DNA from: an uncultured Bacilli bacterium
GTDB taxonomy: Bacteria; Bacillota_I; Bacilli_A; RFN20; CAG-826
Direction of reading: 5' to 3'
Assembly (NCBI GenBank): GCA_944372115.1
Contig: CALVYH010000004.1
Span: 1-64,000, forward strand
Length of the DNA: 64,000 nucleotides
The position numbers and the translations under genes are program-made. The notes under the pieces are model-generated. The model had not been told where the DNA came from. It saw nothing but the letters and a program-made list of their open reading frames with translations, and did not search any database. Below, piece by piece: positions 21,532 to 47,507 of this stretch (position 1 is the first letter of the stretch; each line of letters begins with the position of its first letter).

Positions 21532-21867
21532 ATTCTTCTTCTCCTTTTAAATTAATAATAAAAAATTTATTTATCTATAAATAAATCTTTTTAATTTTAT
21601 TACTTATTAAATAAGTATTCAATAATTATTAAAACATCGTTAAATTCTAATAAATATTGACAAATTCATATATAAAAAGATTCGATTTATAAATAATTTT
21701 TAACAATTTAATAAAAACTAATCTATCTAAAACTTACTTATGCAATATTGCACAAGTAAGTTTTAAGTTTGATGAAATATTATAATTTTGAAGATAGTGA
21801 AGTGATTGTGAAGTTTTCTTCACTATTACTTCACTATTTTCTTCACTAAATAGTGAAGTAATTAATT
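21532..21867. repeat. Intergenic hairpins and a six-copy AGTGAAG array
   Basis: This holds a near-perfect 36-base palindrome at 21729-21764 (AAAACTTACTT arms around TGCAA/TTGCA). Six copies of AGTGAAG or its complement follow between 21796 and 21858, at 21796, 21807, 21818, 21829, 21841 and 21852, roughly every 11-12 bases. The last copies form a 15-bp inverted repeat (21825-21839 with 21848-21862), directly after the stop of the COG2865 gene. The same motif occurs once upstream of that gene pair at 23371-23380. Confidence 0.7.
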
Positions 21868-22779
21868 TTATTCAATAAAAACCTTTTCCTTATTTGAAAA
21901 ATAAACAGATTCTTTTTTGCTTATATTCTTTTTAATTAAATAATTATCTTTAACAAGAGGTAAAATAACATTTTTTCTAAAATAGCTGGAAGGTTTTATT
22001 TTTAAATAAGATGCAATTTCTTTAACATTTTTTGCTTTATTAAAACAATAAGATAATATTTCTAAATCGTATTTATTATCTCTTTTTTCATTTATATATA
22101 TTTTTGGAGCGATATTTGAATTGACCACTCCTCCTTTAAATGACAAATCTGGTAAAGTTAAAGAAAAATATGAAGAAGATGAAGAGACATATGGTGAATA
22201 AACTTTATCATAACGAGAATACTCTTCTTCAATTTTATCGAATCCACTGCCTTTCTTTTCCATTAATTTTAAAATAGTAAAAATATTACATATCACTTCA
22301 TTTCTTCTAATAGGTGGGATAGAAGCTAAGTCTTTCTCTTTATTTAAATAAGGCGAATTTAATAAAGAACCTGGAGAAATAATCTCTAATCGATCTTTAA
22401 AAAGATTAATTTCTATTTGACTACCATTTATAAAATAATTTCTATGAGCTAAGGCATTTATAATTCCTTTATCAAGAGCTTTTAAAGGATAGGAAATTAA
22501 CTCTTCTTGTCCTCCATCACTTTTTTTAATAAAACCATTTGCAGTTCTAGAAAGAATAAATTCCTTTATTTGTAAATATTCGTCTAAAAGATTGCTTTTT
22601 ATTGTTTTTGTAGCAAAAAAAGTGTTATCACCTTTGGAAACTCCTAAAAATTGACTACATTCAACAAGTGTTTTCTCTAAATTATAGTTGTCTTTAAATA
22701 ATATTGCTCCTTTTGTTAATTTCTTATTTATAGATATAAAATTAATTGATATCAACTCTTTAATAGTAAGTTTTTTCAA
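21868..22779 (-). CDS. COG2865-type regulator, ATPase and winged-helix half
   Basis: 303 residues matching the C-terminal two thirds of the protein at 45979-47406. A GHKL-like ATP-binding region has the motif GIINALAHRNYF near residue 110 and EIISPGSL near 133, then RRNEVICNIF and EKKGSGFDKI. A C-terminal winged helix spans about residues 235-300 (EILSYCFNKAKNVKEIASYL). It starts with TTG, overlapping the TGA of the upstream half (TTGA), with an in-frame TAA just before the TTG and no ribosome site. Translation therefore depends on re-initiation. Family members are normally one chain. Confidence 0.75.
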   Translation of the reverse strand: MKKLTIKELISINFISINKKLTKGAILFKDNYNLEKTLVECSQFLGVSKGDNTFFATKTIKSNLLDEYLQIKEFILSRTANGFIKKSDGGQEELISYPLKALDKGIINALAHRNYFINGSQIEINLFKDRLEIISPGSLLNSPYLNKEKDLASIPPIRRNEVICNIFTILKLMEKKGSGFDKIEEEYSRYDKVYSPYVSSSSSYFSLTLPDLSFKGGVVNSNIAPKIYINEKRDNKYDLEILSYCFNKAKNVKEIASYLKIKPSSYFRKNVILPLVKDNYLIKKNISKKESVYFSNKEKVFIE

Positions 22780-23339
22780 TTAACTTTTTCATAATAATCA
22801 AAAAGTTTTGAAAATTCTTTTTCATTAAAATCTTCGGAAGTAACTTCTTCATCAAAAGAAATGTTTTCGCTATTTAAAACTAATTCTCGAATTTCTTCTC
22901 CGCTTGCAATCGAAGTTTCTCCAAAATGTCTAACAAAAATAAAACCTATACCATGAAATCTTAATGAAATCGGTTTATATTTTGCTTCAAAAATTTCTAA
23001 TTTTAAAACATAGCTTGTAAAAGAATCTTTTTCTTTAATAGGAATTTCGCTAATTTCATATTTAATTGGTGGCTCTAAATGATTCTTTATATTTCTATGA
23101 ATCATCAAAATTATTTTGTCAGCTAAAGTATGATTAAAAGGCTTGATCTCATGAGTCTCATCATCAACTCCAATATAAATTATTCCTCCTGAACAATTTG
23201 CAAAAGCGGCTATCTCTTTAAGCCGATTAAATTCATAACGCTCACCGGTTTTTTCGTTAACTCCTTCTTTTAAAATTCTTTTAAATTCAACTTTATTTGT
23301 TTCTATATTTACACCTATTTCTAATTCTTCAATATTCAT
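22776..23339 (-). CDS. COG2865-type regulator, AlbA_2 half
   Basis: 187 residues forming an AlbA_2 (Schlafen-type) domain: the KVEFKRILKEGVNEKTGERY opening, FANCSGGIIYIGVDDE, and the FIFVRHFGETSIASGEEI strand pair. It equals the first 185 residues or so of the single-chain protein at 45979-47406. It ends in a TGA overlapping the next gene's TTG. A copy of the AGTGAAG motif lies between its -10 (TATAAT, 23367-23362 on the minus strand) and upstream sequence. Confidence 0.75.
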   Translation of the reverse strand: MNIEELEIGVNIETNKVEFKRILKEGVNEKTGERYEFNRLKEIAAFANCSGGIIYIGVDDETHEIKPFNHTLADKIILMIHRNIKNHLEPPIKYEISEIPIKEKDSFTSYVLKLEIFEAKYKPISLRFHGIGFIFVRHFGETSIASGEEIRELVLNSENISFDEEVTSEDFNEKEFSKLFDYYEKVN

Positions 23340-24385
23340 ATAAACCTCGAATTTATTTAATTATACAAAATAGTGAAGTAGTTTTTCGTTATTCATATAG
23401 TGCAAGAAAACTTTTTATGAATTAAATTATTAAGATTTTATATCTAGATTAACTTCTTCTTTTATTTATATATCAACTACTATTTCATTTGTTCTTAAAA
23501 ATAGAAAAATGGATTAATAAACAATCCATTTTTCATTTATATAATAGTTATTTATTACTTAAATAAAATAATTCTTTAAAAATTAAAATATATAAGGCAC
23601 TAATATTTAAAAAATTATCAAGAGAAAAATAATATTATTAAAAAATAACTAATACGATAATAATTAAAGACTATGAAGAATTATTTATTAATAAAGTAAT
23701 AAAACAACTATTTATCATTAAAATATTTTCGCTAGTTAATAAAGTAATAATATTATTAGTTTCATATTTATTTAAATAAATGATTTCATTTATAAAACCT
23801 ATTTAACTTTTAAAGAATAAATATCTTACTTACCTTTCACTAGCTTTAACTAAAAATTTAGGGATAGGACATATGTTAAAAAGAAAATTTAGTTAAAGTT
23901 AGTGAAAAAGTGTGAAGATATGTTGTTACGAATTGTGACTAATTATATTTTTGATAAAAATTTAATCTTTGATTAATTTGAAAATACAAAATTAAAATTT
24001 GCTCTCTTTCTATTTCAAAAAAATTACATTAGTATCAAAAATTTTAAGTAGATATTATTCCACCTTTCTCTAATAAAGTTTATTAACCATTCAGCCTATT
24101 TATCCATTCCACTAAAACTTTAAATATTTTTCTCTTAAACACAGCATTTCTTTTTTTAAAAAGATCATATTTGTCGTCATTTCAACATGTTTTTTGCAAA
24201 AAGTTAGGTTTTTCAGAGCTTTATTTCTTTCAATATGGACCAAGTACATTAGGAACAATATCTAAAGAGCTTTTTAAAAATATTGATTTCGCTTTATATT
24301 TAGTTAATCTTAAAATCTTTCTATAAAATATAAGTAATTAAAATTATATAAAAATAAATCAAACAATAGTTTTATTATGATATTT
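23340..24385. other. Gene-poor interval with a hairpin element and decayed coding fragments
   Basis: No intact gene is seen. It contains an AGTGAAG copy (23371-23380), a 101-base fold-back element (23821-23921), a 20-base dispersed motif (24193-24212) and minus-strand open fragments without starts. Examples are a stretch opening KYDLFKKRNAVFKRKIFKVL near 24175-24080, and KYKAKSIFLKSSLDIVPNVL near 24300-24230. I could not assign the fragments to a family. Confidence 0.45.
23821..23921. repeat. Fold-back (MITE-like) element
   Basis: TTTCACTAGCTTTAACTAAA (23835-23854) pairs with 23888-23907 with a single mismatch. The pairing resumes further out with ATATCTT/AAGATAT, making imperfect arms of over 30 bases around a loop of about 33 bases. 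No coding is seen. A miniature transposable element or a long hairpin RNA would both fit. Confidence 0.45.
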
Positions 24386-25696
24386 TTAATATTTATTAAA
24401 AATATCTTCATCTAAAAGGAAATCATAAAGATTTAAATATAATATTCCATCTTCATCATAATAATTTCCGCTATTAACTTTTGTAATGATAATTTTTTTA
24501 AAATTATCATTTATTTTTAATAAACTATTTTTCTCTTGTTTTCTTTTTTCTTCATTATCAATAAAAAACGCTGATTGTAGATAATAGGTTAATCCATTTT
24601 TTTCTATTATAAAATCAACCTCATAAGTTTTTTTAACTTGTTTAGAGTTAATAAACTCATTTTTTACAATATTTCCAATAAATACATTATATTTTCTTTT
24701 AATTAATTCATTATAAATAACATTTTCCATATAATGAGGTTCTTGAGTAAAATTATTAAAATTATTTGCGGCATATCTAATTCCTAAATCATTGAAATAT
24801 ATTTTTTTATTAGTTCCTAATATTTTTTTACCCTTTAAATCTTTTATTTCAACGCTTCTAAAAATATAAGCTTCTTCAATCTTTTTTAAATAAGAAGATA
24901 TTGTTGGAGAAGATACCTCAATATGTTCTTTACTTTTAAAAATATTCTCTAATTTCAACGTATTAAAAAGAGTTCCGACATTATTAGCTAAATAATTAAT
25001 TAAAGTTAATAAAAAAGTAGAGTTTTTTCGAATTTTATTATTTTCAATGATATCTTTAATATAAATGGTTTTATATATATCAGTTAAATATTCTCTTTTT
25101 TCATTTTCACTATTTAATTCCAATGTTAAAGGAAGACCTCCATATCGAATATAATATTGATATATTTTTTCAATATCGTTATTAAACATATTTTTATAGC
25201 AATCATAATATTCTTTAAAAGAAAGAGGGAATACTTCTATATTGTAATTTCTTCCTCTAAATTCAGTAGCAATCTCACTACTTAACATATGGGAATTTGA
25301 ACCAGTTACAAAGATTTGAACATTTTTTATATCGTTTAATTCCATTAAAGCATCATAAAAGGTTAAAATATTTCCTTCTACGTCTTTATTTTTCATTGAT
25401 TTAAGGTTTTGAATTTCATCAATTAATAGATAATTTGTTTTTCCATCATAAATTATTCTTTCTTTAAAATATTTCACAAATTCATAAAGATTTCTATATT
25501 TAGCATTTGAAAGAATATCAAGTTTTAACTCAATAATGTGATCATCTCTAACTCCATTTTCAATTAAATAATTTTTAAAAATATTATAAAGTAAAAATGA
25601 TTTTCCTACTCTTCTAGGACCAACGATAACTTTAATTAACTTTGTGTTTAAAGATGAAACTAAATCTTTCAAATAATTATCTCTTTTAATATACAT
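24386..25696 (-). CDS. AAA_14 / DUF4143 ATPase
   Basis: A 436-residue ATPase of the AAA_14 family common in host-associated Bacillota. Walker A GPRRVGKS is near residue 25, Walker B NYLLIDEIQNLKS near 100, and sensor motif IFVTGSNSHML near 140. The C-terminal DUF4143 region has a nuclease-like VDFIIEKNG box near residue 355. Such proteins have been linked to mobile DNA and toxin-antitoxin-like behaviour, but their role is unproven. It is monocistronic. Two related palindromes lie upstream (25736 and 25798), the proximal one over the -35 region. Confidence 0.82.
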   Translation of the reverse strand: MYIKRDNYLKDLVSSLNTKLIKVIVGPRRVGKSFLLYNIFKNYLIENGVRDDHIIELKLDILSNAKYRNLYEFVKYFKERIIYDGKTNYLLIDEIQNLKSMKNKDVEGNILTFYDALMELNDIKNVQIFVTGSNSHMLSSEIATEFRGRNYNIEVFPLSFKEYYDCYKNMFNNDIEKIYQYYIRYGGLPLTLELNSENEKREYLTDIYKTIYIKDIIENNKIRKNSTFLLTLINYLANNVGTLFNTLKLENIFKSKEHIEVSSPTISSYLKKIEEAYIFRSVEIKDLKGKKILGTNKKIYFNDLGIRYAANNFNNFTQEPHYMENVIYNELIKRKYNVFIGNIVKNEFINSKQVKKTYEVDFIIEKNGLTYYLQSAFFIDNEEKRKQEKNSLLKINDNFKKIIITKVNSGNYYDEDGILYLNLYDFLLDEDIFNKY

Positions 25697-25735
25697 AAAC
25701 TTTTTACTCTTTTTAAATATTATATTTTAAATTTA

Positions 25736-25810
25736 AGTAGAGTTCTACTATTTTTTAAAATAAAATTAATAAAAAATTCTTTTTAACTTTAAATTTTGGT
25801 AGAATTCTAT
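25736..25810. promoter_or_regulatory. Paired palindromes upstream of the AAA_14 gene
   Basis: AGTAGAGTTCTACT (25736-25749) and GGTAGAATTCTAT (25798-25810) share the dyad GTAGA-N2-TCTA(C/T). On the minus strand a TATAAT lies 17 bases after the proximal copy, so it would overlap the -35. They look like operators; the cognate protein is unknown. Confidence 0.5.
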
Positions 25811-25950
25811 ATAAATTGATAATATGGATACTTCAAGTTTTACTTTCTTTAATAATAAAAATTACTTTTTTATAAGGGTGGAAATTCCGAAGTAAATATT
25901 TAAATATCATTAATTAATAAACCTCACAAAATAAATAACAAGACTAAAAA

Positions 25951-26101
25951 TATATATAGGTTTTTACTTTTCCTAAAGAAAAACTTCATTGATTTCTGAT
26001 TTTTTAGTTAAGAAAGCCTCATAAAAGAATATAAGACTAATAGGAAGTAGGTCAAAAGTCAAATTAAAAAGAAAATATAGTTTTCAAAGAATAACTCCTT
26101 A
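25951..26101 (+). repeat. Dispersed ~150-bp repeat, copy 1
   Basis: This segment matches the reverse complement of 41488-41644 over almost its whole length. Shared blocks include AGTTAAGAAAGCCTCAT, GGTCAAAAGTCAAATTAAAA and AAGAAAATATAGTT, with small indels between. No coding is evident. Probably the remains of a mobile element. Confidence 0.65.
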
Positions 26102-26134
26102 TTTCCTTTCTAGAGAAATAAGGAAAAGAACGAT

Positions 26135-26347
26135 TTAAAAAATAAAACGACAAATAAAATTAATAATCATTTTAAAATCATTAATTTTATTTTCTTTAAG
26201 TTTTGAATTTTTTATTTTAAAAGCAAGAGATAAAGAAATTAATATAAATGTTAAACTAGCTACTATTAGTATTATTAAGGTTGAATTTAAATAAATTATA
26301 TAAGTTTTAAGATTGGTATTTAATAAATAAATAGCAATTGAATTGGT
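26135..26347 (-). pseudogene. Fragment of a membrane protein
   Basis: An open stretch of about 70 codons with one clear transmembrane segment (STLIILIVASLTFILISLSL) and a basic tail, ending at a TAA at 26135. It is closed upstream by TAA and has no start codon or ribosome site. Probably the 3' remnant of a lost gene. Confidence 0.35.
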
Positions 26348-26564
26348 ACCTTACTTTTAAAAGGTAGCAATAAAAGTTTTGTTAAAAAAGTAAGTTAAGT
26401 TTAATGAGAAAACTAACAATTGACAATAGGAAAAAAGATAAACTTAAATGAAAGTTACCACCGTCTGTCACTATTATTTTTCATCTTTTTCTTACTCAAA
26501 ATCAATCAAAAACACGATATTCATTGAACTATTTCAATTAAAAACATAGATTTTCTTTTTTTAA

Positions 26565-27060
26565 AAAATTTATTATCTTTTCCCAATGATTTCCTATTGA
26601 CCAGTTTTTCTTAAAACTATTTCTTTTAATAATTCCTTCATTTTAAATGACAATAAATACTATCTTCAGAGATTTATTTAATTTTGTTTTTAAAATAGGG
26701 ACTCTCACATACATATCTTTTCTAATTTCGAATAATGTCTTATCATTTATCTTATCATTTATCTTGTCATTTATCTTGTCATTTAAAAAATTACTATTAC
26801 GATAGAAAATAAATGTAAAAGCAAGTTCATCATTTTTATATTCTTTTCTTATGTTAGTGTTTTCATAAAAAACAAATCTTCTATTAAAGCCTTTATTAAA
26901 AGCATCAATATTAATAACCGTTGTTTAAATAAAACTAGTGTAATTAAAATAAACATTTATAAATTTAAGTTTAAACTTCTTTTTTAATAAATCTTATTGG
27001 ATCAATATTTTTTGTTAAATATTGATCCAATATTATAAATACTTATATAGAAGAATTAAT
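26565..27060 (-). pseudogene. Relic of a COG2865 regulator (copy of the gene at 31079-32434)
   Basis: The DNA aligns with the 3' part of the intact gene at 31079-32434: the winged-helix region, four copies of the 12-bp repeat unit (26738-26785), a FYRNS-like segment, and further upstream the segment encoding the DPIRF region. Frameshifts, stops and deletions prevent translation. It shows that the repeat array belongs to this gene type rather than to one locus. Confidence 0.7.
26738..26785. repeat. Four tandem 12-bp units in the COG2865 relic
   Basis: Four head-to-tail copies of TCTTATCATTTA, the last two with G at position 5. It is the same unit as at 31255-31314 and 32451-32519. Confidence 0.85.
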
Positions 27061-27170
27061 AAATATAAGAAATTATTAATTAAAATCTTTATTAATAAAA
27101 ATATTAATATTATTAAGTAAAACGTAAGCGTTGAAAATTTCACGTTCTTATCGAATGAAAATAATAAAAT

Positions 27171-27219
27171 AAAAACTACCAATATTGGAGTATTTATTTT
27201 CCTAAAATTGGTAGTTTTT
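27171..27219. terminator. Bidirectional terminator after the FtsH-like gene
   Basis: A perfect 13-bp stem (AAAAACTACCAAT and complement) with a 23-base loop, about 60 bases after the stop of the FtsH-like gene. Confidence 0.7.
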
Positions 27220-27276
27220 ATTTATTATTCTCACCATTTAAAGCAGTTAAATTATATTTTCCTTAAAAAATTATTT

Positions 27277-28554
27277 CTATTGTTTAAAAACAATATTTTG
27301 TAATTTAGCCTTAATAATTTTTGTTATCTCTCCTCTTGTTAAAGTTTGTTGTTTCACTAATTTTTCAGCAATTAAAAGTAATTCTTTTTTACATTTTTTT
27401 AGTTTCTTTTTAACTATTCGATAATTTTTCTTTATTAATTTATTGGTTTTTTTAATATAAGATGTTTTTTCAAATTCACTAACATAACTAGGTTCAAAAT
27501 CAAAATCTTCAGGACAATTATTATCAATCCCTTCAATATTTGCTTCATTCATTAAACTGAAAGCTATTTTATAAGCTGCTCGTAAATCCCTTTTGCATCC
27601 AATATCATGCTTTTTGAAAAAAATTTCTTCAGCTATTAGTCCAGAAAGAGCAATTTGTATAGATTCGATTTCGCTATCTCGAGAAATATACATTTTATTG
27701 CTTGTTGAATAAGTTTTACCACCGCCATTACTACAACATACTCTTAATAACTTCTGATTTTTACTAAATTTATAAATATACAAAGCATGACCTGCTTCAT
27801 GAATTGCAATAAATTTTGGAACATCATATTTCTCTTTTTTATTAACTACTCCATTATCAAAAAAGTAATTTTCATTTAAAAAATCGTCTAAAGATGCATC
27901 TTTTCCATATCTTAAATAAACACTGTTAAATAAAGCTTTAATTTTACTTACAGAGTGATCTTTTAAATGTAAAATTAATTCCTCAACACCTTCTTTATTA
28001 TTTTTAAGATCAAAATTATGAGTTTCTAATAATTTTTCTACTATTATTTTTAAATCATCTTCATCACGAATTTCGATTTCAAATTTTCTATCAAATCTAC
28101 CTTCCCTAATTAATGATTTAGGAAGATTATAAAAATTATTAGCAGTTGCTAAAGTTAAGACATTTACATTTTTATTAAAACCATCGAGTTGAGTTTGTAA
28201 AACTCTTTCCAATCTTGAATCTTTATCTATTAATCGATCTATTTCATCAATAATTACAATTGCACCATCTTTCTCTTCTTTTGCTTTATTATAGGTAGAA
28301 ACTAATTCTTCATCTAAATTTTCACTATCTCCTTCTAAAACATAAATTTTATAATCAAAAGATTTAGCAAATTCTCTTACTAAAAGTGTTTTGCCATATC
28401 CTGGATCTCCATAAAATAATATTCCATGAGGGAGATATTCTTTTTTCTTTATATCTAAATCATTATTTTTATACCATCCTAATACTTGATATAATTCATC
28501 TTTTATTTCTTCATAACCATAAACTTCATTTAAAAAATCTTTTCTTTCAACCAT
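27277..28554 (-). CDS. Soluble FtsH-like AAA+ zinc protease
   Basis: The start is placed at 28554 (MVERKDFLNEVYGYEEI, 425 residues) because GAGGAAA precedes it and the upstream extension is not conserved-looking. Walker A GDPGYGKT is at about 49-56, Walker B IVIIDEID at 99-106, and the arginine-finger segment LIREGRFDRKFEI near 148-160. The zinc-protease motif HEAGH is at 252-256, with the third ligand Asp (GCKRDLRAA) near 323. These are the FtsH motifs, but the two N-terminal membrane helices of FtsH are absent and the protein is much shorter (FtsH is about 600 or more). It lies 110 bases after a WYL regulator gene on the same strand. I infer a cytosolic regulated protease; substrates unknown. 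Confidence 0.8.
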   Translation of the reverse strand: MVERKDFLNEVYGYEEIKDELYQVLGWYKNNDLDIKKKEYLPHGILFYGDPGYGKTLLVREFAKSFDYKIYVLEGDSENLDEELVSTYNKAKEEKDGAIVIIDEIDRLIDKDSRLERVLQTQLDGFNKNVNVLTLATANNFYNLPKSLIREGRFDRKFEIEIRDEDDLKIIVEKLLETHNFDLKNNKEGVEELILHLKDHSVSKIKALFNSVYLRYGKDASLDDFLNENYFFDNGVVNKKEKYDVPKFIAIHEAGHALYIYKFSKNQKLLRVCCSNGGGKTYSTSNKMYISRDSEIESIQIALSGLIAEEIFFKKHDIGCKRDLRAAYKIAFSLMNEANIEGIDNNCPEDFDFEPSYVSEFEKTSYIKKTNKLIKKNYRIVKKKLKKCKKELLLIAEKLVKQQTLTRGEITKIIKAKLQNIVFKQ

Positions 28555-29869: not shown

Positions 29870-30762
29870 ATTCTATTAATTTTGCAGCTCTATCCAATTC
29901 GGTTTTTCGGGTATTTGAGATAAAGGAATATAAATTTAATTAATCTTGTATTTTTTCTCTTTCAAATCCAGAATGATTGCTCAAAAAATTTTTAAGTAAA
30001 CATATTTCTTGATTAATTTTATTTAATGGATTACTTTTATCATTGGAAATTGTTTTTAGGTAAGTAGATTTAAAATATTCTTCTTTTAATTTAAAAACAT
30101 CTACTAATTTTTTATGGGTTAACTCACAATCATGAATTAAAATAGATTCCTCAACAATATGTGGACTATAAGTTTTAAATGTTCTATCTATTGAAGGCTT
30201 ACTTTTACCTTCATAAATAAATATTTTATTATCAAATTTATCAACGCCAACTGCAATACATAATTTATCTTTAGAGATGTCTCTTAGTTTTTTATTTCCT
30301 TTACATTTTGTATCTTTTAGCTTTACTTTATAAAACGTTTCATCGATCCATATTTTACTTTTTAACTTAATATTAGTTTGATAATCTTTTAAAACGATGA
30401 AAAGTTTTTCTAACCAATATTTTGATGTGTTTAACGAATTTTTATTTAATCTTGATGTCTGATTTAAGCTTTGAAAATGAATTAGATTTAAGCTAAAATC
30501 GAGAAATTCTAAAATACTAATTTTATGATTTTCTAAAATCGTATTTGATAAAGGATTAAATTTTTTTGCAGTGTTTGCATTTATACCTCTTAATTCCTTC
30601 CTTAGTTTTGTCATATTTTATTATTTTTTGAGAATTGCAAAATGGACAATAATCTTTATTTAAAGAATTTACTAACTGAACCTCTAAAAGATTATCATAA
30701 GGTTTTTCGTGTTTAAGATTATAAGCTGCCAAGTTTTTTTCTTTTAATGCTTTTTCTAAAAT
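29870..30762 (-). pseudogene. IS1595 (ISXO2-like) transposase, broken
   Basis: The N-terminal part includes a zinc-finger-like YCPFCNSQKI then RYKCKHCKK, with the frame lost at an A7 tract near 30555. The main open stretch 29940-30614 carries IWIDETFYKVKLKD, the IHDCELTHKK region and NKINQEICLLKNFLSNHSGF, typical of ISXO2-like DDE transposases. A TAA at 29940 interrupts the C-terminus, and the homologous tail (LNLYSFISN... ELDRAAKLIELL) continues in the same frame to about 29870. At least two lesions, so inactive. Confidence 0.78.
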
Positions 30763-31078: not shown

Positions 31079-32434
31079 TTAATCAACTTTATCAATTATT
31101 TCCCAATGACCAGTTTTTCTTGAACCACTTCTTTTAATAACTCCTTCATTAATTAAAGCTTTTAAATGACGATAGATAGTCGATTCAGATTTACCTAATT
31201 TTGTTTTTAAAATAGGTATTGTAATATATTTATCCTTTCTGATTTCAAATAATATCTTATCATTTATCTTATCATTTATCTTGTCATTTATCTTATCATT
31301 TATCTTATCATTCAAAAAATTGCTGTTACGATAGAAAATAAAAGTAAAACCAAATTCATCGTTTCGATATTCATATTTTACATTAGAGTTATCACATAAA
31401 GTAAATGTTCTATCAAAACCTGTACCAAAAGCATCTATATAACCACACTTATATAATACCGAGGCTATTAAAACATTTCTTATCTTACTACCAACTTCTC
31501 CTTTAGCAAATCTTATCGGATCAACATCTTTAAATATTGATCCCGGATTATAAATTCTTATAGAAGATTTAAATATAACAAACTGGTTATGATCTCCGCT
31601 AACTGAATATTTACTATGAGCAAAACTATTAATAACGATCTCTCTAATAGCTTGGGCTGGTATTTCTGGAGTTTCAACTCTGGTTAAACCGATAATTTCC
31701 GATTTATAGTTTATATGATTTTGTATATATGATGTAGCTTCTCGAATACATTCAAAAATATTTCCTTTAAATTCTTTTATTTCTCCAAATTCAGTCCTTG
31801 TATCTGTTGGATAACTAGCTTCTTTAATTAAAAGTGGTTTTCCTTTTCCAAATAGATAATAACCAGCTTTTTTAATTCTTCCTTCATCATCTAATAAATC
31901 CAATTTAGTTAAAGCTGTTTGAATATCATCATAAACGTAGTTTAATCTTCCTTTTTCATTGGAAAGTCTTATAACATTAATTAATAAATCTTCGTCTATA
32001 TCATCATAAGAATAGGATGTAGGTGTTTCTTCCCATTTTGAATAATTATCTTCTTTATTTTCAAAAAAATTTTGAAGTTGAGAACTGCTCATTAAAATAT
32101 CTCCATCATCAATTCTTATAAAATATCTTCCATAAGCAGAATAAGGAGTATCATTACCTTCCACAACTATTTTAATAACATCAACTTCTTCAATTTTAAC
32201 AACTTCTATTTCTAGTTTATTTGGTAAAGGTTTTAAATTTGTTCTTATTTCATTAGAAATATCAGCTAAAGTTTTTTTAGAAATAGTATATTTATAAACT
32301 CTTTTATCTGGTCCTATTCCAAAATACAATTCACCTCTATTTTTACTATTTAGCATAGATGATAATGATATAACACCTTCTTTAAGTTGTGCTAAAGACT
32401 TCTTATATTCTAATGTAACGCTTTCCTCATCCAT
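31079..32434 (-). CDS. COG2865-type regulator with (NDKI)5 linker
   Basis: A 451-residue protein with three parts: an AlbA_2 domain (about 1-125; EYKKSLAQLKEGVISLSSML and GELYFGIG), a GHKL-like ATP-binding domain (about 190-365; AIREIVINSFAHSKYS, RIYNPGSIF, GTGFDRTF), and a C-terminal winged helix (395-451; KSESTIYRHLKALINEGVIK). Between the last two, residues 375-394 are five Asn-Asp-Lys-Ile units encoded by a 12-bp DNA repeat. The same repeat occurs five times just upstream of the start. Proteins of this type are predicted transcriptional regulators. Self-regulation through the repeats is my inference. Confidence 0.82.
   Translation of the reverse strand: MDEESVTLEYKKSLAQLKEGVISLSSMLNSKNRGELYFGIGPDKRVYKYTISKKTLADISNEIRTNLKPLPNKLEIEVVKIEEVDVIKIVVEGNDTPYSAYGRYFIRIDDGDILMSSSQLQNFFENKEDNYSKWEETPTSYSYDDIDEDLLINVIRLSNEKGRLNYVYDDIQTALTKLDLLDDEGRIKKAGYYLFGKGKPLLIKEASYPTDTRTEFGEIKEFKGNIFECIREATSYIQNHINYKSEIIGLTRVETPEIPAQAIREIVINSFAHSKYSVSGDHNQFVIFKSSIRIYNPGSIFKDVDPIRFAKGEVGSKIRNVLIASVLYKCGYIDAFGTGFDRTFTLCDNSNVKYEYRNDEFGFTFIFYRNSNFLNDKINDKINDKINDKINDKILFEIRKDKYITIPILKTKLGKSESTIYRHLKALINEGVIKRSGSRKTGHWEIIDKVD
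31255..31314. repeat. Five in-frame 12-bp repeats inside the COG2865 gene
   Basis: Copies of TCTTATCATTTA start at 31255, 31267, 31279 (G variant), 31291 and 31303 (last copy ends TCA). Each is exactly four codons on the minus strand (NDKI), so copy number can change without breaking the frame. Confidence 0.92.
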
Positions 32435-32450
32435 AAATTTTATCCTTTTA

Positions 32451-32519
32451 TCTTATCATTTATCTTATCATTTATCTTATCATTTTCCAATAATATCTTA
32501 TCATTTATCTTATCATTTA
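32451..32519. repeat. Five 12-bp repeats upstream of the COG2865 start
   Basis: TCTTATCATTTA units start at 32451, 32463, 32475, about 32496 and about 32508, with a 9-base break after the third. They directly precede the AAAGGA ribosome site and ATG (32434), where an operator for autoregulation would lie. The unit is identical to that inside the gene. Confidence 0.88.
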
Positions 32520-32655
32520 TACTTCGCTATACGCTATTTTATTTCTTTTTTAATTAAGAAAAAAACACTATTATCCAATTATATTTAATCGATTTTTTCT
32601 AATTTTCGCTGGTAATGTCAATATAAAAATTACCACACAAGGGGATGCGGACATT

Positions 32656-33363
32656 TTATTGGACAGTTTTTAAATTTTTCCATAGTCTAACTTTTATTCT
32701 TTTTTCTGTAAACCATTTTAAATATTTATTTAATTTATCAATGAAGTCAGAACATGTTGTCTCTGTCCAATCGTAAGGATAATAAAATTCGTTTTTTATT
32801 GTTCCAAAGAAACCCTCACACATTGAATTATCCGGCGAACAACCTTTTTTGCTCATAGATCTTGTATAGCCAAATTTATCCATTAATGTTATCCGACTCG
32901 GGACACGATAATGAAATCCTCTATCATTATGAATAGTACAATTATTATTTTTAATTATTTCGTGGCCTTTTATAAGCATTGTATTAGTTAGCTCCGAATT
33001 AGGTGATGTGCCACAAGTATAAACTATTGGCAAACCATCATAACAATCAATTAAAGGAGATAAGTATACTTTTCCATCTTTTAAAGAGAATTCTGTTATA
33101 TCAGTCAATACTTTTGTATAAGGTTTATCCACTTTAAAGTCTCTATTTAATAAATTAGGAACTTTAGGGAAAATTTCGCCTTCATAAGACGAGTATTTTC
33201 TTTTTCTCTTTTGATAAACAAAAAGGCCAATTTGTTTCATTAAGCGTCTAACAACTTTTTCACTAATATTAATGTTGAAAGTATCAATAAGAGCTATTTT
33301 AATTCTTCTATAGCCGTAACATTTATAATTTTCATTAAATATTATTTTTTTCTTTAATATCAT
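32656..33363 (-). CDS. IS3-family transposase, OrfB-like catalytic part
   Basis: 235 residues with the retroviral-integrase core. YGYRRIKIAL is near the start, the first Asp is in KVLTDITEF, the second in DCYDGLPIVY-type context, and the catalytic Glu in NSMCEGFFGTIKNE. The C-terminus (RIKVRLWKNLKTVQ) lacks the usual SPVEYR-like box, which suggests a small deletion. Its frame is +1 relative to OrfA at an A7 tract. It is not in the classical -1 relation. Confidence 0.82.
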   Translation of the reverse strand: MILKKKIIFNENYKCYGYRRIKIALIDTFNINISEKVVRRLMKQIGLFVYQKRKRKYSSYEGEIFPKVPNLLNRDFKVDKPYTKVLTDITEFSLKDGKVYLSPLIDCYDGLPIVYTCGTSPNSELTNTMLIKGHEIIKNNNCTIHNDRGFHYRVPSRITLMDKFGYTRSMSKKGCSPDNSMCEGFFGTIKNEFYYPYDWTETTCSDFIDKLNKYLKWFTEKRIKVRLWKNLKTVQ

Positions 33364-34138
33364 CGTATTTATCGACTAAATTTCTAGTACATTCATAGTA
33401 AAAAGTAGATCTTTTTAGTTTTAATTTATTTAATAAAGCTGTGGTTGGATATGCTCCTTTTAAGGCGTTAACTACAATAGTTTTTTCTTTGTTGGTTAAA
33501 TTACCGTAATTAACGCCTATTTCTTTTTTTATTAATTCATTTGCCTTCTTTAGTATTTTATTCTCGAGTTCTAAATCATTCCTCTCTTTTCTTAATTTTT
33601 CAATTTCAGCGAGTAATTCGTCTTTATTGTTGTTCTTGTCAATATCCATTTTTTCTCCCGTTAATTTTCTTTGCCAAATATAAATAGTTTCTCTCGTAAC
33701 ACCCAATTTTTCGGCCAATTCTTTCCCAGGAATTGTCCTATTGACAAATTCTTTTACAATAGTAATTTTATCATCTTCCGAATAATTATTTTTATTTACT
33801 TTTATTTTTCTTTTATGTTTTTTATATCTTTTATCTTTTTTAACCCGTAATTTTAGACAAGATATTGATGGATACCCAAATTTTTTAACTGCATTAGAAA
33901 TATTTTCTCCGTGTTCAAAATAATAATCGCACACCTGTTTCATTTGTTCAGAAGTCCGTTTACCTTTTTTAGTGTGAACAAACGGTCTTATCAAAAGAGG
34001 TAAACCAGCTTTTTCGCAGTTGTACCATCTTCTTATAGTTCTTACTTTTATTCCAGTTTCTCTTGATGTCTTTGCAAATTGACAATCATATTTATGAAGT
34101 AGTTTAAGCGTTTTCTTTATTGTTTTTAAATCGTACAT
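33335..34138 (-). CDS. IS3-family transposase, OrfA-like part
   Basis: A 267-residue protein with two helix-turn-helix regions (about 15-50 and 120-160; VTRETIYIWQRKL), a leucine-zipper-like coiled coil (about 170-200) and the start of the OrfB linker. It ends in A-rich codons (IKEKNNI) overlapping OrfB by 29 bases. Removing one A from the tract would fuse the two frames. Confidence 0.8.
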   Translation of the reverse strand: MYDLKTIKKTLKLLHKYDCQFAKTSRETGIKVRTIRRWYNCEKAGLPLLIRPFVHTKKGKRTSEQMKQVCDYYFEHGENISNAVKKFGYPSISCLKLRVKKDKRYKKHKRKIKVNKNNYSEDDKITIVKEFVNRTIPGKELAEKLGVTRETIYIWQRKLTGEKMDIDKNNNKDELLAEIEKLRKERNDLELENKILKKANELIKKEIGVNYGNLTNKEKTIVVNALKGAYPTTALLNKLKLKRSTFYYECTRNLVDKYDDIKEKNNI

Positions 34139-41270: not shown

Positions 41271-41487
41271 GACCTTTTAAAAATGCGATAAATATCGTAG
41301 TTTATCCAATTACAACTTTATGTAACTAAAATTCAGTTTTAGTGTTAAATAATCTGTGTCTACTTTTTTGTTACCACTACACTACTTTTAGGTTACCACT
41401 ACATTTTATTGCAAATTCCTCCGCCAAAATGATATAAAAAATAAAATAAGAAGTACCAATTTGGCAATTCTTATATTGACTTTATCA

Positions 41488-41644: not shown

Positions 41645-41829
41645 CTCATTTACATTTATCTAATCTATTAAATTTATATATTAAAATTATTTATCAAAAT
41701 AGAAAGCAAAAAAATTAAAGCTTAGGTAAAATTTTAAATAACTATTCATATTTTATAGCATTTATTAAATATAAATAATTGAAAAAATAAGCGAAAATAA
41801 ACCAATTATTAGCAATATAATATCAAATA

Positions 41830-42057
41830 CTAAAAACCTATTCTCGAACGCTTATTTTCTCTATCTATTTTTATCCACTCTAAAATTAAATCAACAAGGC
41901 TACAGAATAAGACAATCCCGCCAGTAATTAATATTATTCCTTTATAAGAAAATTCATTATTTAAAATTAATAATAGAAAAGTGACTATTATAGAAACAAT
42001 AGCTAAAGTTTTAAAAATTAGTGAAAAAATAATTTTTTTAGAATATTTTTTATACAT
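41830..42057 (-). CDS. Small membrane protein
   Basis: 75 residues with two hydrophobic helices (about 10-33 and 39-60) separated by a short loop, then a basic tail (KIDRENKRSRIGF). It resembles two-helix small membrane proteins without a named family. The ribosome site is weak. Confidence 0.5.
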   Translation of the reverse strand: MYKKYSKKIIFSLIFKTLAIVSIIVTFLLLILNNEFSYKGIILITGGIVLFCSLVDLILEWIKIDRENKRSRIGF

Positions 42058-42260
42058 ATCTAAACCTGCCTAATTGAAAATTAAATTTTTATAAATTAAC
42101 TTAATTATATCTAATTTTTCAAATAAAAAAGCAACATTTTAATAGTTTTAATTCTATAGATGTTGCTTTATTACTTGTTATTTTTAAATAATTTATTAAA
42201 TCTATTAAAAGTATAAATTTTCACAAATTTTCATCTTTTATTGACTTTTTCTTCACTTAT

Positions 42261-43070
42261 TTATTTATAAAATACTTTATATAAATATAATCCTTTAGCT
42301 TCGACTTGATAGTTTATTATTTTTCTTTCTTTTATATTAGTTAAATAATTTTTTATCTCTTCCTTACTAATTTTATTTTCATTATATGCTAAAAAAGTTC
42401 CAATTATTTTTCTAATTTCATAACGCATAAAACCATCACCCATAAACGTTATTTTTATATATTTATTACTAATTTTTGATATTTTTATATCAAAAATTGT
42501 TCTTATAAAATTTTCTTCATCTTCTTTTTTAGATGTAAAATTAATAAAGTTATGTTTACCAATAAATTCTTTAGATATATCGATTAATTTTCTTATATCT
42601 ATATTATTTTTATAAAATAATTCATAGTTTCTTTTTAATGGATCATATTCTTTTATATTAATAAGATAATAGTATTCTTTTTTTAACGAAGAAAAACGTG
42701 AAGAAAAAGATAAAGGAACTTTGCTTATTTTCTTTATATAAATATCTGAAGGTAAAAGTTTATTCATTTTATATTTAAAAAGGGATAAATCATCGATTTT
42801 TTTATTAGTGAAAAAATTTGCTACTTGATTTAAAGCATGTACTCCTTTATCAGTTCTTCCACTACTATAAATTTTAGTCTCTTTTTGAGAAGTAATAATT
42901 ATATTTAAAATTTTTTCAATTTCTTCTTGAACACTTCTTTCATTTTTTTGTTTTTGATAACCAAAAAAAGAAGTTCCATCATAAGAAAAAATAATTTTAT
43001 AGTTATAATTACCTAATTTTTCTTGTATATTTTTAATTTTTATTCTTGTTTCTTCATTTCTTTCGTGCAT
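42261..43070 (-). CDS. truA: tRNA pseudouridine38-40 synthase
   Basis: A 269-residue enzyme that isomerises U38-U40 in the tRNA anticodon arm. The catalytic Asp is in YSSGRTDKGVHAL (Asp74). The opening YNYKIIFSYDGTSFFGYQKQ and the C-terminal GFMRYEIRKIIGTFL are TruA signatures. About 20 extra N-terminal residues precede the usual start, so the true start may be internal. It lies after ecfT as in Bacilli, but rplM-rpsI do not follow here. Confidence 0.94.
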   Translation of the reverse strand: MHERNEETRIKIKNIQEKLGNYNYKIIFSYDGTSFFGYQKQKNERSVQEEIEKILNIIITSQKETKIYSSGRTDKGVHALNQVANFFTNKKIDDLSLFKYKMNKLLPSDIYIKKISKVPLSFSSRFSSLKKEYYYLINIKEYDPLKRNYELFYKNNIDIRKLIDISKEFIGKHNFINFTSKKEDEENFIRTIFDIKISKISNKYIKITFMGDGFMRYEIRKIIGTFLAYNENKISKEEIKNYLTNIKERKIINYQVEAKGLYLYKVFYK

Positions 43071-43254
43071 ATAAATATTTTATCAACTATAAAGAATTAT
43101 TAGTTATAAAATTTTAAATTTTATTTCAAAAAATATAATAAAATAAAAAAGTCGATAATTATCATATATTTTACAATTTTTGTAAAAAAATCGAACGAGT
43201 TTTAAAGAAATTTACAAATTTCCCAAACGACTTTTATAAAAACCAACTCTCGAT

Positions 43255-44136
43255 TTACCATGTAGGAATATTGAATATTGAGTTTAAGAAATCATCAAAA
43301 CCTGGAACATACGAAGCAAAGCATGATGCAGTAATCATAATTCCAGCTACTAGAAGAATAAAAATAATTGCTAATAAATCTCTATATGTAAAATGAAGTG
43401 TTTTATAATGACTTCTTTTTTTATAAGGATCATATCCTCTTGCTTCCATTGCAATAGCAAGTTCATCACTTCTTGAAAAACAACTTACTAAAAGAGGAAT
43501 AATTAATGTAGTTATTGATCTAATTTTACTCATTAAAAAACCACGATTATAATCAACACCTCTACTTTTTTGAGCATTCATTATTCTATTGGATTCATTT
43601 AAAAGAGTTGGAATAAATCTTAAAGCTAGTGAAATTGTTAAAGAAACTATTTGAGTAGGAAATTTAACGACTCTTAATGGGGTCAAATACCATTCAAGAG
43701 CATATGTAATATCCATTGGTAAGGTTGTTGAAGTTAAAATAATAGTTAAAGCAACCATTAAAATGAGTCTTAAAATAACATGACCTACATTTAAAAGACC
43801 ATCGTAATATAAGGTATAGCCATTTTCAAATTGATAAATTAAATATTTTCCTTCATTTGGTAAGAAAAACATAAAAATAAGCAGGAAAATAAACATAACC
43901 CACATTGAAGAAAGGCTTTTAAAGAATGATTTAAAAGAAACTTTTCCTATAATCATTATTAAAGCGATGATTATAGTTAAAAATCCTAAAACTAAAAAAC
44001 GATTGGTATAATTTCCATAAGGTAAAAATGTAACAACCATTAATAAAATTAAACTAAATAATTTAAAACGTGGATCTAGACGATGAATAATCGTATTATA
44101 TGGAGAATATTTACCTAAAATATTGCTATTTGCCAT
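43255..44136 (-). CDS. ecfT: ECF transporter transmembrane component
   Basis: The 293-residue EcfT scaffold of a group II energy-coupling-factor vitamin importer. It has five or six hydrophobic segments, the opening YSPYNTIIHRLDPRFKLFSL, and the coupling-helix Ala-Arg-Gly motifs (MNAQKSRGVD and AMEARGYDPY) that contact the ATPases. It overlaps ecfA2 by 11 bases. An S component is encoded at 55319-56140. Confidence 0.94.
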   Translation of the reverse strand: MANSNILGKYSPYNTIIHRLDPRFKLFSLILLMVVTFLPYGNYTNRFLVLGFLTIIIALIMIIGKVSFKSFFKSLSSMWVMFIFLLIFMFFLPNEGKYLIYQFENGYTLYYDGLLNVGHVILRLILMVALTIILTSTTLPMDITYALEWYLTPLRVVKFPTQIVSLTISLALRFIPTLLNESNRIMNAQKSRGVDYNRGFLMSKIRSITTLIIPLLVSCFSRSDELAIAMEARGYDPYKKRSHYKTLHFTYRDLLAIIFILLVAGIMITASCFASYVPGFDDFLNSIFNIPTW

Positions 44137-45025
44137 AATTTTCTCCTATTACATCAACTAATTCATCAATTGTATTAGCATTTGAAATATCATTTTTAAA
44201 ACCAAATTCATCTAAATATCTTTTAAATTTATAAAAAGAAGGTATTTCTAATGAATAATTACTTAAATCTTTAGAATTAAATAATTCATTTGGAGTAACC
44301 ATTTTTATAAAACGAGAATCTTTTAAAACAGCAACTTTTGTAGCATATTCCATTACTACATCCATATCGTGAGTAACAATAATTATAGTTGTTCCTTTTT
44401 CATGAATTTTTTTAATTAAATCTAAAATTTCTTTTTTTCCATTTGGATCAAGGCCAACGGTTGGTTCATCTAAAACTAAAATTGAAGGAGATGAAGCAAT
44501 AATTCCAGCAATTGCAACTCTTCTTTTTTCTCCACCACTTATTTCAAAAGGACTTTTTTCATAATAACTTTCATCAATACCAACTTCATTTAAAGCTTCG
44601 ATTGCTTTTTCTTTAGCCTCTTTTTCATTCATTCCAAAATTTAAAGGGCCAAACATTACATCCTTAATAATTGTTTCGCTAAAAAGTTGATATTCTGGAA
44701 ATTGGAAAACCATACCTACTTCTTTTCTAAGATTAGAAAACTTTTTAAAATCTTTACTTTTTAATCTTTTTTCTTTTTTTAACTTTTTAATAATTTCTTT
44801 ATCACCTGTTACATAAAAATCTAAAACTTTTGTATAACCACTTGTTGGAAGTAATAAGCCATTTAAAGTTTGAACTAAAGTTGATTTTCCACTTCCTGTA
44901 TGACCAACAAGAGCAATAAAATCACCTTTTTCAATATTAAAACTTACCTCTTTTAAGGCGTCATAATGATTAGGATCTTTTTTGTTATAAATAAAAGATA
45001 TGTTATTAAAATTTATTAACGACAT
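44126..45025 (-). CDS. ecfA2: ECF transporter ATPase A2
   Basis: A 299-residue ATPase. Walker A GHTGSGKST is near residue 42, the Q-loop VFQFPEYQLF, the signature SGGEKRRVAIAGI, and Walker B ILVLDEPTVGLD. It pairs with EcfA1 on EcfT. It overlaps both neighbours by about 10 bases. Confidence 0.95.
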   Translation of the reverse strand: MSLINFNNISFIYNKKDPNHYDALKEVSFNIEKGDFIALVGHTGSGKSTLVQTLNGLLLPTSGYTKVLDFYVTGDKEIIKKLKKEKRLKSKDFKKFSNLRKEVGMVFQFPEYQLFSETIIKDVMFGPLNFGMNEKEAKEKAIEALNEVGIDESYYEKSPFEISGGEKRRVAIAGIIASSPSILVLDEPTVGLDPNGKKEILDLIKKIHEKGTTIIIVTHDMDVVMEYATKVAVLKDSRFIKMVTPNELFNSKDLSNYSLEIPSFYKFKRYLDEFGFKNDISNANTIDELVDVIGENYGK

Positions 45026-45837
45026 ATAAATTTAGCTAATTCCTCAATAGTTTTAATATTTTCATCGATAATTATCCCTTTTTCATTTAATTTATTTTTA
45101 ATTTTTAAAACAAAAGGAATATCTAAATCGATTTTTTTCATTTCTTCTTCACTTGAAAAAACTTTTGAAGGAATATCGTTTTTAAATACTTTTCCTTCAT
45201 TTAAAATTATTACTCGATCACTTAAATAAGCTTCTTCAATATCATGAGTTATAGAAATTACGGTTAATTCTGGATTTTCTTTTTTCATTTTTAAGATTAA
45301 ATTTCTAATTTCTTCAACTCCTTCGGGATCCAACATTGAAGTAGCTTCATCAAATATCATAATTTTTAAATTTAAAGCTAAAATTCCAGCTATAGCGACT
45401 CTTTGCTTTTGCCCACCACTTAATTCTTCTGGTTCTTTAGTTAAAAATTTATCCATTCCAACTTTTTTAGAATATTCTTTAACGATTTCTTTCATTTTCT
45501 TTTGTTCAATATTTCTATTTTCTAGCCCAAAAGCTATATCATCTTCAACAGTTGAACCGATAAATTGATTATCTGGATTTTGGAAAACTATACCTATTTT
45601 ATTTCTTATATCTTTAATAGTTTTTTCGTTTAATTCTTCATTTTCGATATAAATCTTTCCTTTTTGAGGTTCTAAAATATAAGATAAAAGTTTAGCTAGT
45701 GTCGATTTACCACTACCATTATGACCAATAAGAGTTACATATTCTCCCTTATTAATATAAAAAGATACATCATCGAGTATCTTTTTATCTTTTTCATATC
45801 CAAATGTTATATTTTTAACTTCAATAATTTTTTCCAT
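45016..45837 (-). CDS. ecfA1: ECF transporter ATPase A1
   Basis: A 273-residue ATPase. Walker A GHNGSGKST is near residue 38, the Q-loop VFQNPDNQFIG, the signature LSGGQKQRVAIAGI, and Walker B IMIFDEATSMLD. First gene of ecfA1-ecfA2-ecfT. There is no clear Shine-Dalgarno site; a 28-base palindrome sits just before the start. Confidence 0.95.
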   Translation of the reverse strand: MEKIIEVKNITFGYEKDKKILDDVSFYINKGEYVTLIGHNGSGKSTLAKLLSYILEPQKGKIYIENEELNEKTIKDIRNKIGIVFQNPDNQFIGSTVEDDIAFGLENRNIEQKKMKEIVKEYSKKVGMDKFLTKEPEELSGGQKQRVAIAGILALNLKIMIFDEATSMLDPEGVEEIRNLILKMKKENPELTVISITHDIEEAYLSDRVIILNEGKVFKNDIPSKVFSSEEEMKKIDLDIPFVLKIKNKLNEKGIIIDENIKTIEELAKFICR

Positions 45838-45844
45838 TTTTAAA

Positions 45845-45872
45845 ATCTAATTAATTTATTAATTAATTAGAT
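45845..45872. promoter_or_regulatory. Palindrome directly upstream of ecfA1
   Basis: ATCTAATTAATT and its complement (12-bp arms, 4-base loop) end 8 bases before the ecfA1 ATG. Pure A/T apart from one G-C pair per arm. It may be an operator or a translation-affecting hairpin. Confidence 0.4.
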
Positions 45873-45941
45873 AATTATTATTACTTTATTTAATGTTAAT
45901 TTCAACTAAATTAATAATATAAATATCCTTAAAAAGTAGTT

Positions 45942-45986
45942 ACTTCTATGGTCACTTCTATTTAAACTTCCACTAGTTCTATTTAA
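45942..45986. repeat. 12-bp repeat array over the COG2865 stop codon
   Basis: ACTTCTATGGTC (45942), ACTTCTATTTAA (45954), a degenerate ACTTCCACTAGT (45966) and a last AGTTCTATTTAA overlapping it (45975-45986). The TAG stop of the gene (45979-45981) lies in the last unit. Same units as at 47448-47507. Confidence 0.85.
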
Positions 45987-47406
45987 GTTTTACATTATCA
46001 CGATTTGAATAATATAAATCAGCTTTAAATCTATCGTTTCTCTTTAAAAAATTGGTTTCGACCAATGGTAAAAGTATTTTTTTTCTAAAATATGTTGATA
46101 AACTAATGTTTAAAAATTTAGCGATTTCTTCAGTTGTTCTTGCTTTGTTATAACAATATGAGAGTACTTTTAATTGTTTTTCACTTAATAATTCTTCTCC
46201 CATACAAGTAATATCAGGATTTTCACTATCTTTATTAAATGAATAATTAATATTTGGTAACGTTAAAATAAAATAGTTCTCTTTTGCAGTTACATAAGGT
46301 TTATGATTTTCATCCATTAGCTTATAATCTTGGCTGATTTTATCAAATCCCGAACCTTCTTTTTCCATGAAATGACACATAGTTAGAATATTTGCGATAA
46401 CTTCATTTCTTCTAGTTGGCTTTATATTATCAATATTTTTTTCTTTATTTAAATTAATATTTGTTGTTAATCCACCAGGCGAAGCGATTTCCATTCTGTC
46501 TTTAAAAATATCTACTTCAATTAAACTATCTCTAAAAAAATAATTTTTATGGGCAAAAGCGTTTACAATTCCTTCAAAAACCGATCTTAATGGAAAATCA
46601 TAAATGGTTATTCTACCAATGTCTTCTTTTTTCTCATATGATCCAATATTTTCTCTAATTACATCTAATGATTTATTAATAGAAGAAATAATATTTTCAC
46701 GTATATCCAATAAATTCTTATAGGCATTATCGCCTTTAGTAAAACCAAACCATTTTGTTATTTTTATTATTGTTTCATTTTCGGAATAATCATCTTTAAA
46801 AAGTAAGGCGCCAGTTTTTAAAACGCCTTCTTCATTCATAAAATTATTAGAAATAAGAATTTTTTCATTTAATTGATAGCCGTTTTTGTTTATGAAAGTA
46901 TCGAAAAGAATATTAAAATCATTTTTATCAAATTTTTCATTAGATAAACGATTATCAAAACTATCGCTATGACTTGATAAAACTAAATAAACTATGTCTT
47001 CTCTTTGAGCAGGTATATTTCTTCCTTCCTCTCTAATATAAATTGAAGGCACACCATGAAACATCAAAATCACTGGTAAATCCATCGCCTTATCAATTTT
47101 TATATCTATTACAAAAAGATCTTTTTTAATTTCTTGATAGTTAAATTCGTATTTTGGAAGAGGAGAAATATGTTCTTTAACATTTCGATGAAATACTTGA
47201 ACTTGTTCATTTACTAATTCTTTAGGTAGACCTATTGCTTCGCCATTATCTTTAACTCCAACAAATAAATGACCTCCGTTTGTATTAGAAAAAGCTACAA
47301 CACTTTTTAACCAACTTTCAGATTTATCACCATCATTTAATATTTGTTTAAATTCAATAGTTTTTGTTTCAAAAGGAAATTTTAAATCTAAATTTTTTGT
47401 AACCAT
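45979..47406 (-). CDS. COG2865-type AlbA/ATPase/winged-helix regulator
   Basis: 475 residues in one chain: AlbA_2 domain (about 10-160; TIEFKQILNDGDK, NTNGGHLFVGVKDNG, PSIYIREEGRNI), GHKL-like ATP-binding domain (about 255-385; FEGIVNAFAHKNYF, MEIASPGGL, EKEGSGFDKI) and C-terminal winged helix (about 405-470; VLSYCYNKARTTEEIAKFL). It is the closest relative in the window of the split pair at 21868-23339. Twelve-bp repeats flank it on both sides, five upstream and about four across its stop codon. Confidence 0.83.
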   Translation of the reverse strand: MVTKNLDLKFPFETKTIEFKQILNDGDKSESWLKSVVAFSNTNGGHLFVGVKDNGEAIGLPKELVNEQVQVFHRNVKEHISPLPKYEFNYQEIKKDLFVIDIKIDKAMDLPVILMFHGVPSIYIREEGRNIPAQREDIVYLVLSSHSDSFDNRLSNEKFDKNDFNILFDTFINKNGYQLNEKILISNNFMNEEGVLKTGALLFKDDYSENETIIKITKWFGFTKGDNAYKNLLDIRENIISSINKSLDVIRENIGSYEKKEDIGRITIYDFPLRSVFEGIVNAFAHKNYFFRDSLIEVDIFKDRMEIASPGGLTTNINLNKEKNIDNIKPTRRNEVIANILTMCHFMEKEGSGFDKISQDYKLMDENHKPYVTAKENYFILTLPNINYSFNKDSENPDITCMGEELLSEKQLKVLSYCYNKARTTEEIAKFLNISLSTYFRKKILLPLVETNFLKRNDRFKADLYYSNRDNVKLK

Positions 47407-47447
47407 ATTGCCACCTTTTTTATATATTTTATCATAAACATAAATTT

Positions 47448-47507
47448 ACTTCTATGATTACTTCTATTTAAACTTCTATGGTCACTTCTATTTAAACTTC
47501 TAAAAAC
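47448..47507. repeat. Five tandem 12-bp repeats upstream of the COG2865 start
   Basis: ACTTCTAT plus a 4-base tail at exact 12-bp steps (47448, 47460, 47472, 47484, 47496). Tails alternate GATT, TTAA, GGTC, TTAA; the last unit is degenerate. The array ends 42 bases before the start codon at 47406. Confidence 0.92.

Follow-up and report, generated by a model that had tools for sequence, protein, structure and literature searches.

Private iteron-like repeat arrays as probable operators of Schlafen-type winged-helix proteins, in part within their own coding sequence

Results

Three loci and their repeat arrays

The window analysed here is a stretch of 64,000 nucleotides from an uncultured Bacilli bacterium (assembly GCA_944372115.1, contig CALVYH010000004.1, positions 1 to 64,000). 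Three of its loci, here called A, B and C, encode the same architecture of SLFN_AlbA_2, HATPase_c_4 (GHKL) and winged helix (Pfam), and short repeats are found beside or inside each gene. The three-domain architecture is that of COG2865 ("RecG-like", "putative transcriptional regulator"). This report concerns the relation of the repeats to the proteins, and it leads us to interpret the repeats as probable private binding sites of the winged helix. The genes and arrays of the three loci and a decayed paralogue of B are as follows.

21796..21858, no strand assigned: locus A, downstream array, six TAGTGAAG-type (AGTGAAG-type) copies in both orientations
21868..22779, (-) strand: locus A, 3' part, open reading frame (ORF) of 303 amino acids with HATPase_c_4 and winged helix
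22776..23339, (-) strand: locus A, 5' part, ORF of 187 amino acids with SLFN_AlbA_2
23371..23379, no strand assigned: locus A, single upstream repeat copy, ATAGTGAAG
~26540..27000, (-) strand: decayed paralogue of locus B, 64% identity, one stop
31079..32434, (-) strand: locus B protein, 451 amino acids, intact; SLFN_AlbA_2 4-115, HATPase_c_4 281-364, linker of five NDKI units ~375-394, winged helix 393-434 (Pfam)
31253..31314, (-) strand: locus B, coding array, five 12-base-pair (bp) units, TAAATGATAAGA on the coding strand, encoding NDKINDKINDKINDKINDK (NDKI x5)
32447..32520, (-) strand: locus B, promoter array, five copies of the coding 12-mer TCTTATCATTTA in two blocks (3 + 2)
45942..45986, (-) strand: locus C, 3'-end array, two exact ATAGAAGT and degenerate copies, overlapping the stop codon
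45979..47406, (-) strand: locus C protein, 475 amino acids, intact; SLFN_AlbA_2 13-133, HATPase_c_4 295-383, winged helix with recognition helix 438-450 (Pfam and AlphaFold2)
47448..47507, (-) strand: locus C, promoter array of ATAGAAGT-N4 (ACTTCTAT-N4), four exact copies and one TTAGAAGT

The SLFN_AlbA_2 domains of A, B and C score 72.7, 55.5 and 74.3 bits against a Pfam cut-off of 25.3, and their HATPase_c_4 domains score 64.4, 39.9 and 66.4 bits against a cut-off of 26. The winged helix of B matches HTH_24 (8e-8). In the AlphaFold2 model of protein C (mean predicted local distance difference test, pLDDT, of 87.8) the winged helix is formed by helices 409-417, 425-431 and 438-450 and strands 454-457 and 464-467. 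The nearest solved structure is 3lmm, from C. diphtheriae; protein B, when searched by itself against the PDB, returned no match. NCBIfam gave sub-threshold matches only, and the PADLOC matches, all partial, were to domains of other systems.

A preliminary description of this DNA had taken all three loci to be intact, which is correct for B and C; locus A is split by a -1 frameshift into two ORFs, the 3' ORF lying in frame -1 relative to the 5' ORF with an overlap at TTGA. This split may reflect decay, an error of the draft assembly or a genuine split gene. Proteins A and C are paralogues with 42% identity across the 3' part. A homologue of locus A in another genome (G004) is likewise present as two ORFs (L132, L137).

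The repeats of all three loci were found at the positions given for them in that description. At locus B the coding array forms the linker directly before the winged helix, and the promoter copies all have the same orientation, with the end of the array adjoining the ribosome-binding site. The claim that no repeat type occurs near the other loci stands for the most part, except that the decayed paralogue keeps four TCTTATCATTTA copies at 26738-26785, with NDKI still readable in one frame. The A and C repeats, which had been described as different, have a GAAGT core in common (AGTGAAGT vs ATAGAAGT), and the proteins encoded beside them are paralogous.

The B and C repeats were also sought across all 24 contigs of the genome (1.25 Mb). 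Apart from the decayed copy, the B 20-mer is confined to locus B, where it lies in the promoter and within the gene; elsewhere there is one match with three mismatches, vs two for a reversed control. Similarly, the C unit pair, at up to one mismatch, was found at locus C only. A wider regulon was not seen, as no other genes in the genome carry B or C repeats beyond background. Promoter consensus scans gave sites no more numerous than in shuffles, within error, and the promoter positions at B and C are therefore uncertain. An IS3-like transposase pair (HTH_Tnp_1; HTH_21 + rve) lies immediately upstream of locus B, at 32656-34138.

Arrays across the family

The family was sampled as 132 non-redundant full-length genes drawn from 205 loci. 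A periodic array, defined as at least three copies of a 7-mer at a spacing of 9-13 or 19-25 bp, accompanies 89 of the 132 relatives: upstream in 52, as a 12-bp repeat within the coding sequence in 36 and downstream in 15. None of the shuffled upstreams (0%) reached the threshold for an upstream array. By a second criterion, one 7-mer present at least four times within 300 bp upstream, 27.6% of the relatives are positive, vs 0.1% of dinucleotide shuffles, 0 of 39 other window genes and 5 of 53 (9%) other genes of the loci. Three of these five control genes owe their arrays to adjoining family members (L200 twice, L204), so that the true background lies below 9%. Arrays occur family-wide, and in this genome the B and C units are confined to their own loci and the decayed B copy.

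Upstream copies show a spacing peak at 10-12 bp, and most of them fall between -120 and -20 relative to the start codon; the repeated words differ between family members (GAGGGGT x13, GGGACAT x8, TGGTGAC x6, TTCCCGA x6 and TTGAAGT x7-11). Promoter and coding arrays occur together in 4 genes vs about 14 expected (P=4e-5), and this tendency towards mutual exclusion fits two layouts serving one function. The downstream arrays of mycoplasma-type genomes are much longer than those elsewhere, with 13-46 near-perfect copies of 11-12 bp (L200:111-1068, L204:2050-2609 and L197:2128-2418); the L200 and L204 genes stay open when TGA is read as Trp. Family members are distributed patchily, with up to 12 copies per genome.

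Coding arrays written into the linker

At a level of 75% or more, coding repeats have a period of 12 bp in 40 genes, of 15 in 3 and of 9 in none. With two exceptions they map to 0.81-0.86 of the protein length, in the linker between ATPase and winged helix, where they encode tandem tetrapeptides such as NDKI, VDKL, NVGV, DPIN, SPNK, DQIN, NEHL and NDTQ. When every coding array (n=38) was scored against its own upstream and 128 other upstreams, the own upstream ranked first for 7 of the 38 (0.3 expected; P=2e-8) and fell within the top 5% for 13 (P=2e-8). These matches occur in either orientation, which points to a feature of the DNA. In L145, L149, L155 and L188 an inverted unit pair straddles a TATAAT-like -10.

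Additionally, 22 of the 26 Asn-phased coding arrays have G as the first base of the codon that follows Asn (background 31%; P=2e-8). Because this G is held, D, E, G, V and A interchange at that position while AATG is unchanged, a pattern in which a constraint at the DNA level is visible.

Promoter and coding units are identical in a subset of the family. An orthologue of B with 71% identity (L114) has retained GATAAGATAAA at promoter and linker alike, though at another spacing, and the Mycoplasmopsis arginini gene L306, which lies beside hsdS and hsdR, has the same unit, TGTCACTAG, in both places. Members embedded in operons (Aliarcobacter, Parabacteroides) have the linker repeats and lack the upstream array. 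An AAATG half is common to the units of quite different members (TAAATGATAAGA, TAAATGTCGGTG, TAAATGAGCACC and AAAATGACACCC), as if a conserved part of the protein read one half of the site.

Covariation of repeat and recognition helix

For the subfamily to which A and C belong, a scan of genome contigs yielded 80 named loci, chiefly in Bacillota, plus Treponema and Coriobacteriaceae. The subfamily repeat is NNNGAAGT (67 sequences), and 84% of 83 usable genes have at least three exact upstream copies of their own NNNGAAGT word. On average an upstream holds 3.93 copies of its own word vs 0.11 of words of another class, and the own-word copies are mostly in one orientation (290:36).

In an alignment of 67 non-redundant members, all 479 columns were ranked by their mutual information with the two variable bases of the repeat. 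The best predictor of the two bases is residue 436 (protein C numbering), which also ranks first among pairs matched at 35-50% overall identity. AlphaFold2 puts the recognition helix at 438-450, which places residue 436 at its N-terminus. In gene C, codons 435-437 (S-L-S) occupy 46096..46104 on the (-) strand, as computed from the gene coordinates, with codon 436 at 46099-46101. The residues and bases pair as follows.

Residue 436 = D: TT in 34 of 34 (TTGAAGT)
Residue 436 = N: TT 7, TA 1
Residue 436 = P: GT 7 (GTGAAGT), AT 3, other 4
Residue 436 = A: GT 2, TA 1
Residue 436 = V or L: TA 4 (TAGAAGT), TT 1

The repeat therefore covaries with the recognition helix. In the tree, L253 (D, TTGAAGT) is nested in the P/A clade, while L230 (Y, AATGAAGT) and L236 (T, AAAGAAGT) are nested in the D/N clade. 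The ranking of this column among the aligned positions is strong, but phylogeny is controlled only in part.

In 3 of the 3 same-genome pairs of A/C paralogues seen, the two members differ in repeat class: L219 and L227 in Treponema ruminis, L241 and L256 in one Coriobacteriaceae draft genome, and window loci A and C. Such differences hint at selection against cross-talk.

Discussion

The analysis leads us to propose that the winged helix of these proteins binds its own private iteron-like repeats and that the protein thereby controls its own gene, a reading to which we assign a probability of roughly 0.8. The 10-12 bp repeats would be sites for the C-terminal winged helix, private to the gene that encodes it. 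The protein would bind an array at its own promoter plus a second array, at the 3' end of the gene or inside its coding sequence, and would thereby regulate the gene that encodes it, most likely by repressing it. Sites at the promoter fall at the positions expected for a -35/-10 region, and those of the coding-array class often form an inverted pair around a -10-like box; repression is likelier than activation because promoter elements are covered or straddled by the sites. Roughly one gene in four would have its second array written as the tandem tetrapeptide linker; 12 bp (four codons) is the sole multiple of three within the 10-12 bp range. Binding, autorepression, looping between the arrays and a Schlafen ribonuclease (RNase) as the controlled activity are all steps that we infer.

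Part of the specificity, at the least, would come from the N-terminal residue of the recognition helix. This residue changes with the repeat, which suggests recognition and control by each protein of its own gene only; most likely specificity and site change together. The preliminary description had anticipated a winged helix that recognises its own repeat, with co-evolution of the two, and had called for a covariation check; run on the 67 A/C members, that check lends support to the idea, residue 436 being top of the 479 columns and first in both tests. Furthermore, periodic repeats are not equally frequent at unrelated genes, upstream of which they are rare. The pairing of gene and array reaches well past the three loci, as 89 of the 132 relatives have arrays.

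Several observations weigh against this reading. By the criterion applied here, the remaining 43 of 132 relatives have no array. Within the covariation set, L290 (N, TA), L017 (P, TT) and L269 (V, TT) are exceptions to the rule linking residue and bases, the covariation is carried largely by one D/N-TTGAAGT clade, and a tree test of independent pairs gave 2 for and 0 against on supported branches, the pairs being few. Among the coding arrays, 25 of 38 are without a convincing match upstream, and no clear second site was found in the genome for the NEHL and NGTV units, so that the coding repeats could partly be a linker at the protein level. Finally, the choice between repression and activation is drawn solely from the position of the sites.

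The alternative that survives best, although we consider it unlikely, takes the tetrapeptide repeat to matter for the protein alone, as a flexible polar linker that grew in 12-bp steps by slippage, its upstream likeness having arisen through copying by slippage or gene conversion. The linkers are indeed polar and of low complexity, with perfect copies that suggest slippage, and many coding arrays have no upstream counterpart. However, upstream matches occur in both orientations and flank a -10-like box, they involve several unrelated unit types (NDKI, VDKL, DPIN, SPNK, NVGV and DQIN), and GNN is maintained in the codon that follows Asn. Nor does a linker account for the many members that have promoter arrays without a coding repeat, or for the tendency of the promoter and coding layouts to exclude each other.

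A second alternative, very unlikely in our view, accepts that the sites are bound and assigns them a purpose other than autoregulation. The array would be a docking or titration platform, a "DNA antitoxin" that holds the Schlafen toxin inactive whether it lies in the promoter, downstream or in the linker codons, and release of the protein upon loss of host DNA, for example when phage degrade it, would free the RNase. This would suit arrays that lie in the promoter, within the gene or in its downstream flank and have no other genomic targets, and the 13-46 downstream copies in mycoplasma-type genomes exceed what a promoter needs. In one report, related proteins that combine a Schlafen RNase, a minimal histidine kinase and a winged helix-turn-helix are described as accompanying BREX systems, and anti-phage activity of bacterial Schlafens is cited (PMC12839542). 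The commonest position of the arrays is nevertheless the promoter region, with few copies. Were the platform reading true, operator, toxin and part of the toxin coding sequence would form one co-evolving, mutually orthogonal unit.

Least probable of all are recombination or mobility cassettes, raised in the preliminary description, in which direct repeats unrelated to protein binding mark where multi-copy genes exchange or insert: the genes are patchy and multi-copy, same-orientation repeats flank locus C, and locus B has an adjoining IS3-like element and a decayed copy close by, but cassettes predict neither covariation with the recognition helix, nor in-frame linker copies of period 12 only, nor sites at helical spacing between -120 and -20 and straddling a -10 box, and the units are not common to neighbouring family members.

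To return to private operators, their closest parallel lies on plasmids. Iteron-regulated plasmid Rep proteins are winged-helix proteins that bind direct repeats of ~11-22 bp and repress their own gene. As in iteron-type autoregulated regulators, direct repeats spaced at about one helical turn adjoin the gene of a winged-helix protein here, and by analogy autoregulation is likely. In contrast to iteron Rep, the window family lacks a replication initiator domain, is chromosomal and multi-copy, has mutually distinct repeats and can have sites that are coding.

The regulated product is a Schlafen-type protein and a putative RNase. E13 is conserved in 121, E18 in 115 and D at the third position in 83 of the 132 relatives; these we take to be the three-carboxylate (E, E, D) active site of Schlafen proteins, so that two of the three presumed catalytic carboxylates are well conserved. 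N282, H286 and G353 of HATPase_c_4 are conserved in 125-131 of 132.

Xre-COG2865 has been named as a predicted toxin-antitoxin family (PMC5308263). The window proteins resemble such an autoregulated system in that a putative RNase toxin domain is combined with a DNA-binding domain that is probably autoregulatory. They differ in that the toxin-like and DNA-binding domains lie in one chain and that no adjacent Xre gene was recognised among the Pfam-matched neighbours of the three loci, one neighbour (29940-30614) being without any Pfam match.

The protein family itself is known; what appears to be new is an iteron-type operator, probably autoregulatory, that occurs in a family where it was not expected and lies partly within its own coding sequence. 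The accessible portions of published COG2865 and Schlafen accounts make no mention of private arrays, operator copies in the coding region or a specificity residue. Among the accessible papers we found no description of private arrays, coding operators or helix-repeat covariation for this family, and no report of which DNA it binds. Many bacteria have members of the family, often several in one genome, and the family has been linked to phage defence. If the proposal is true, binding sites could be read directly from genomes for hundreds of members, which would provide a natural data set for the winged-helix recognition code and for the insulation of paralogues. In-frame operator copies that serve as a linker would be an unusual case in which one sequence is both protein and regulatory DNA. 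Family members also lie within type I restriction (hsd) clusters, in Mycoplasmopsis arginini (L306) and in Aliarcobacter (L307).

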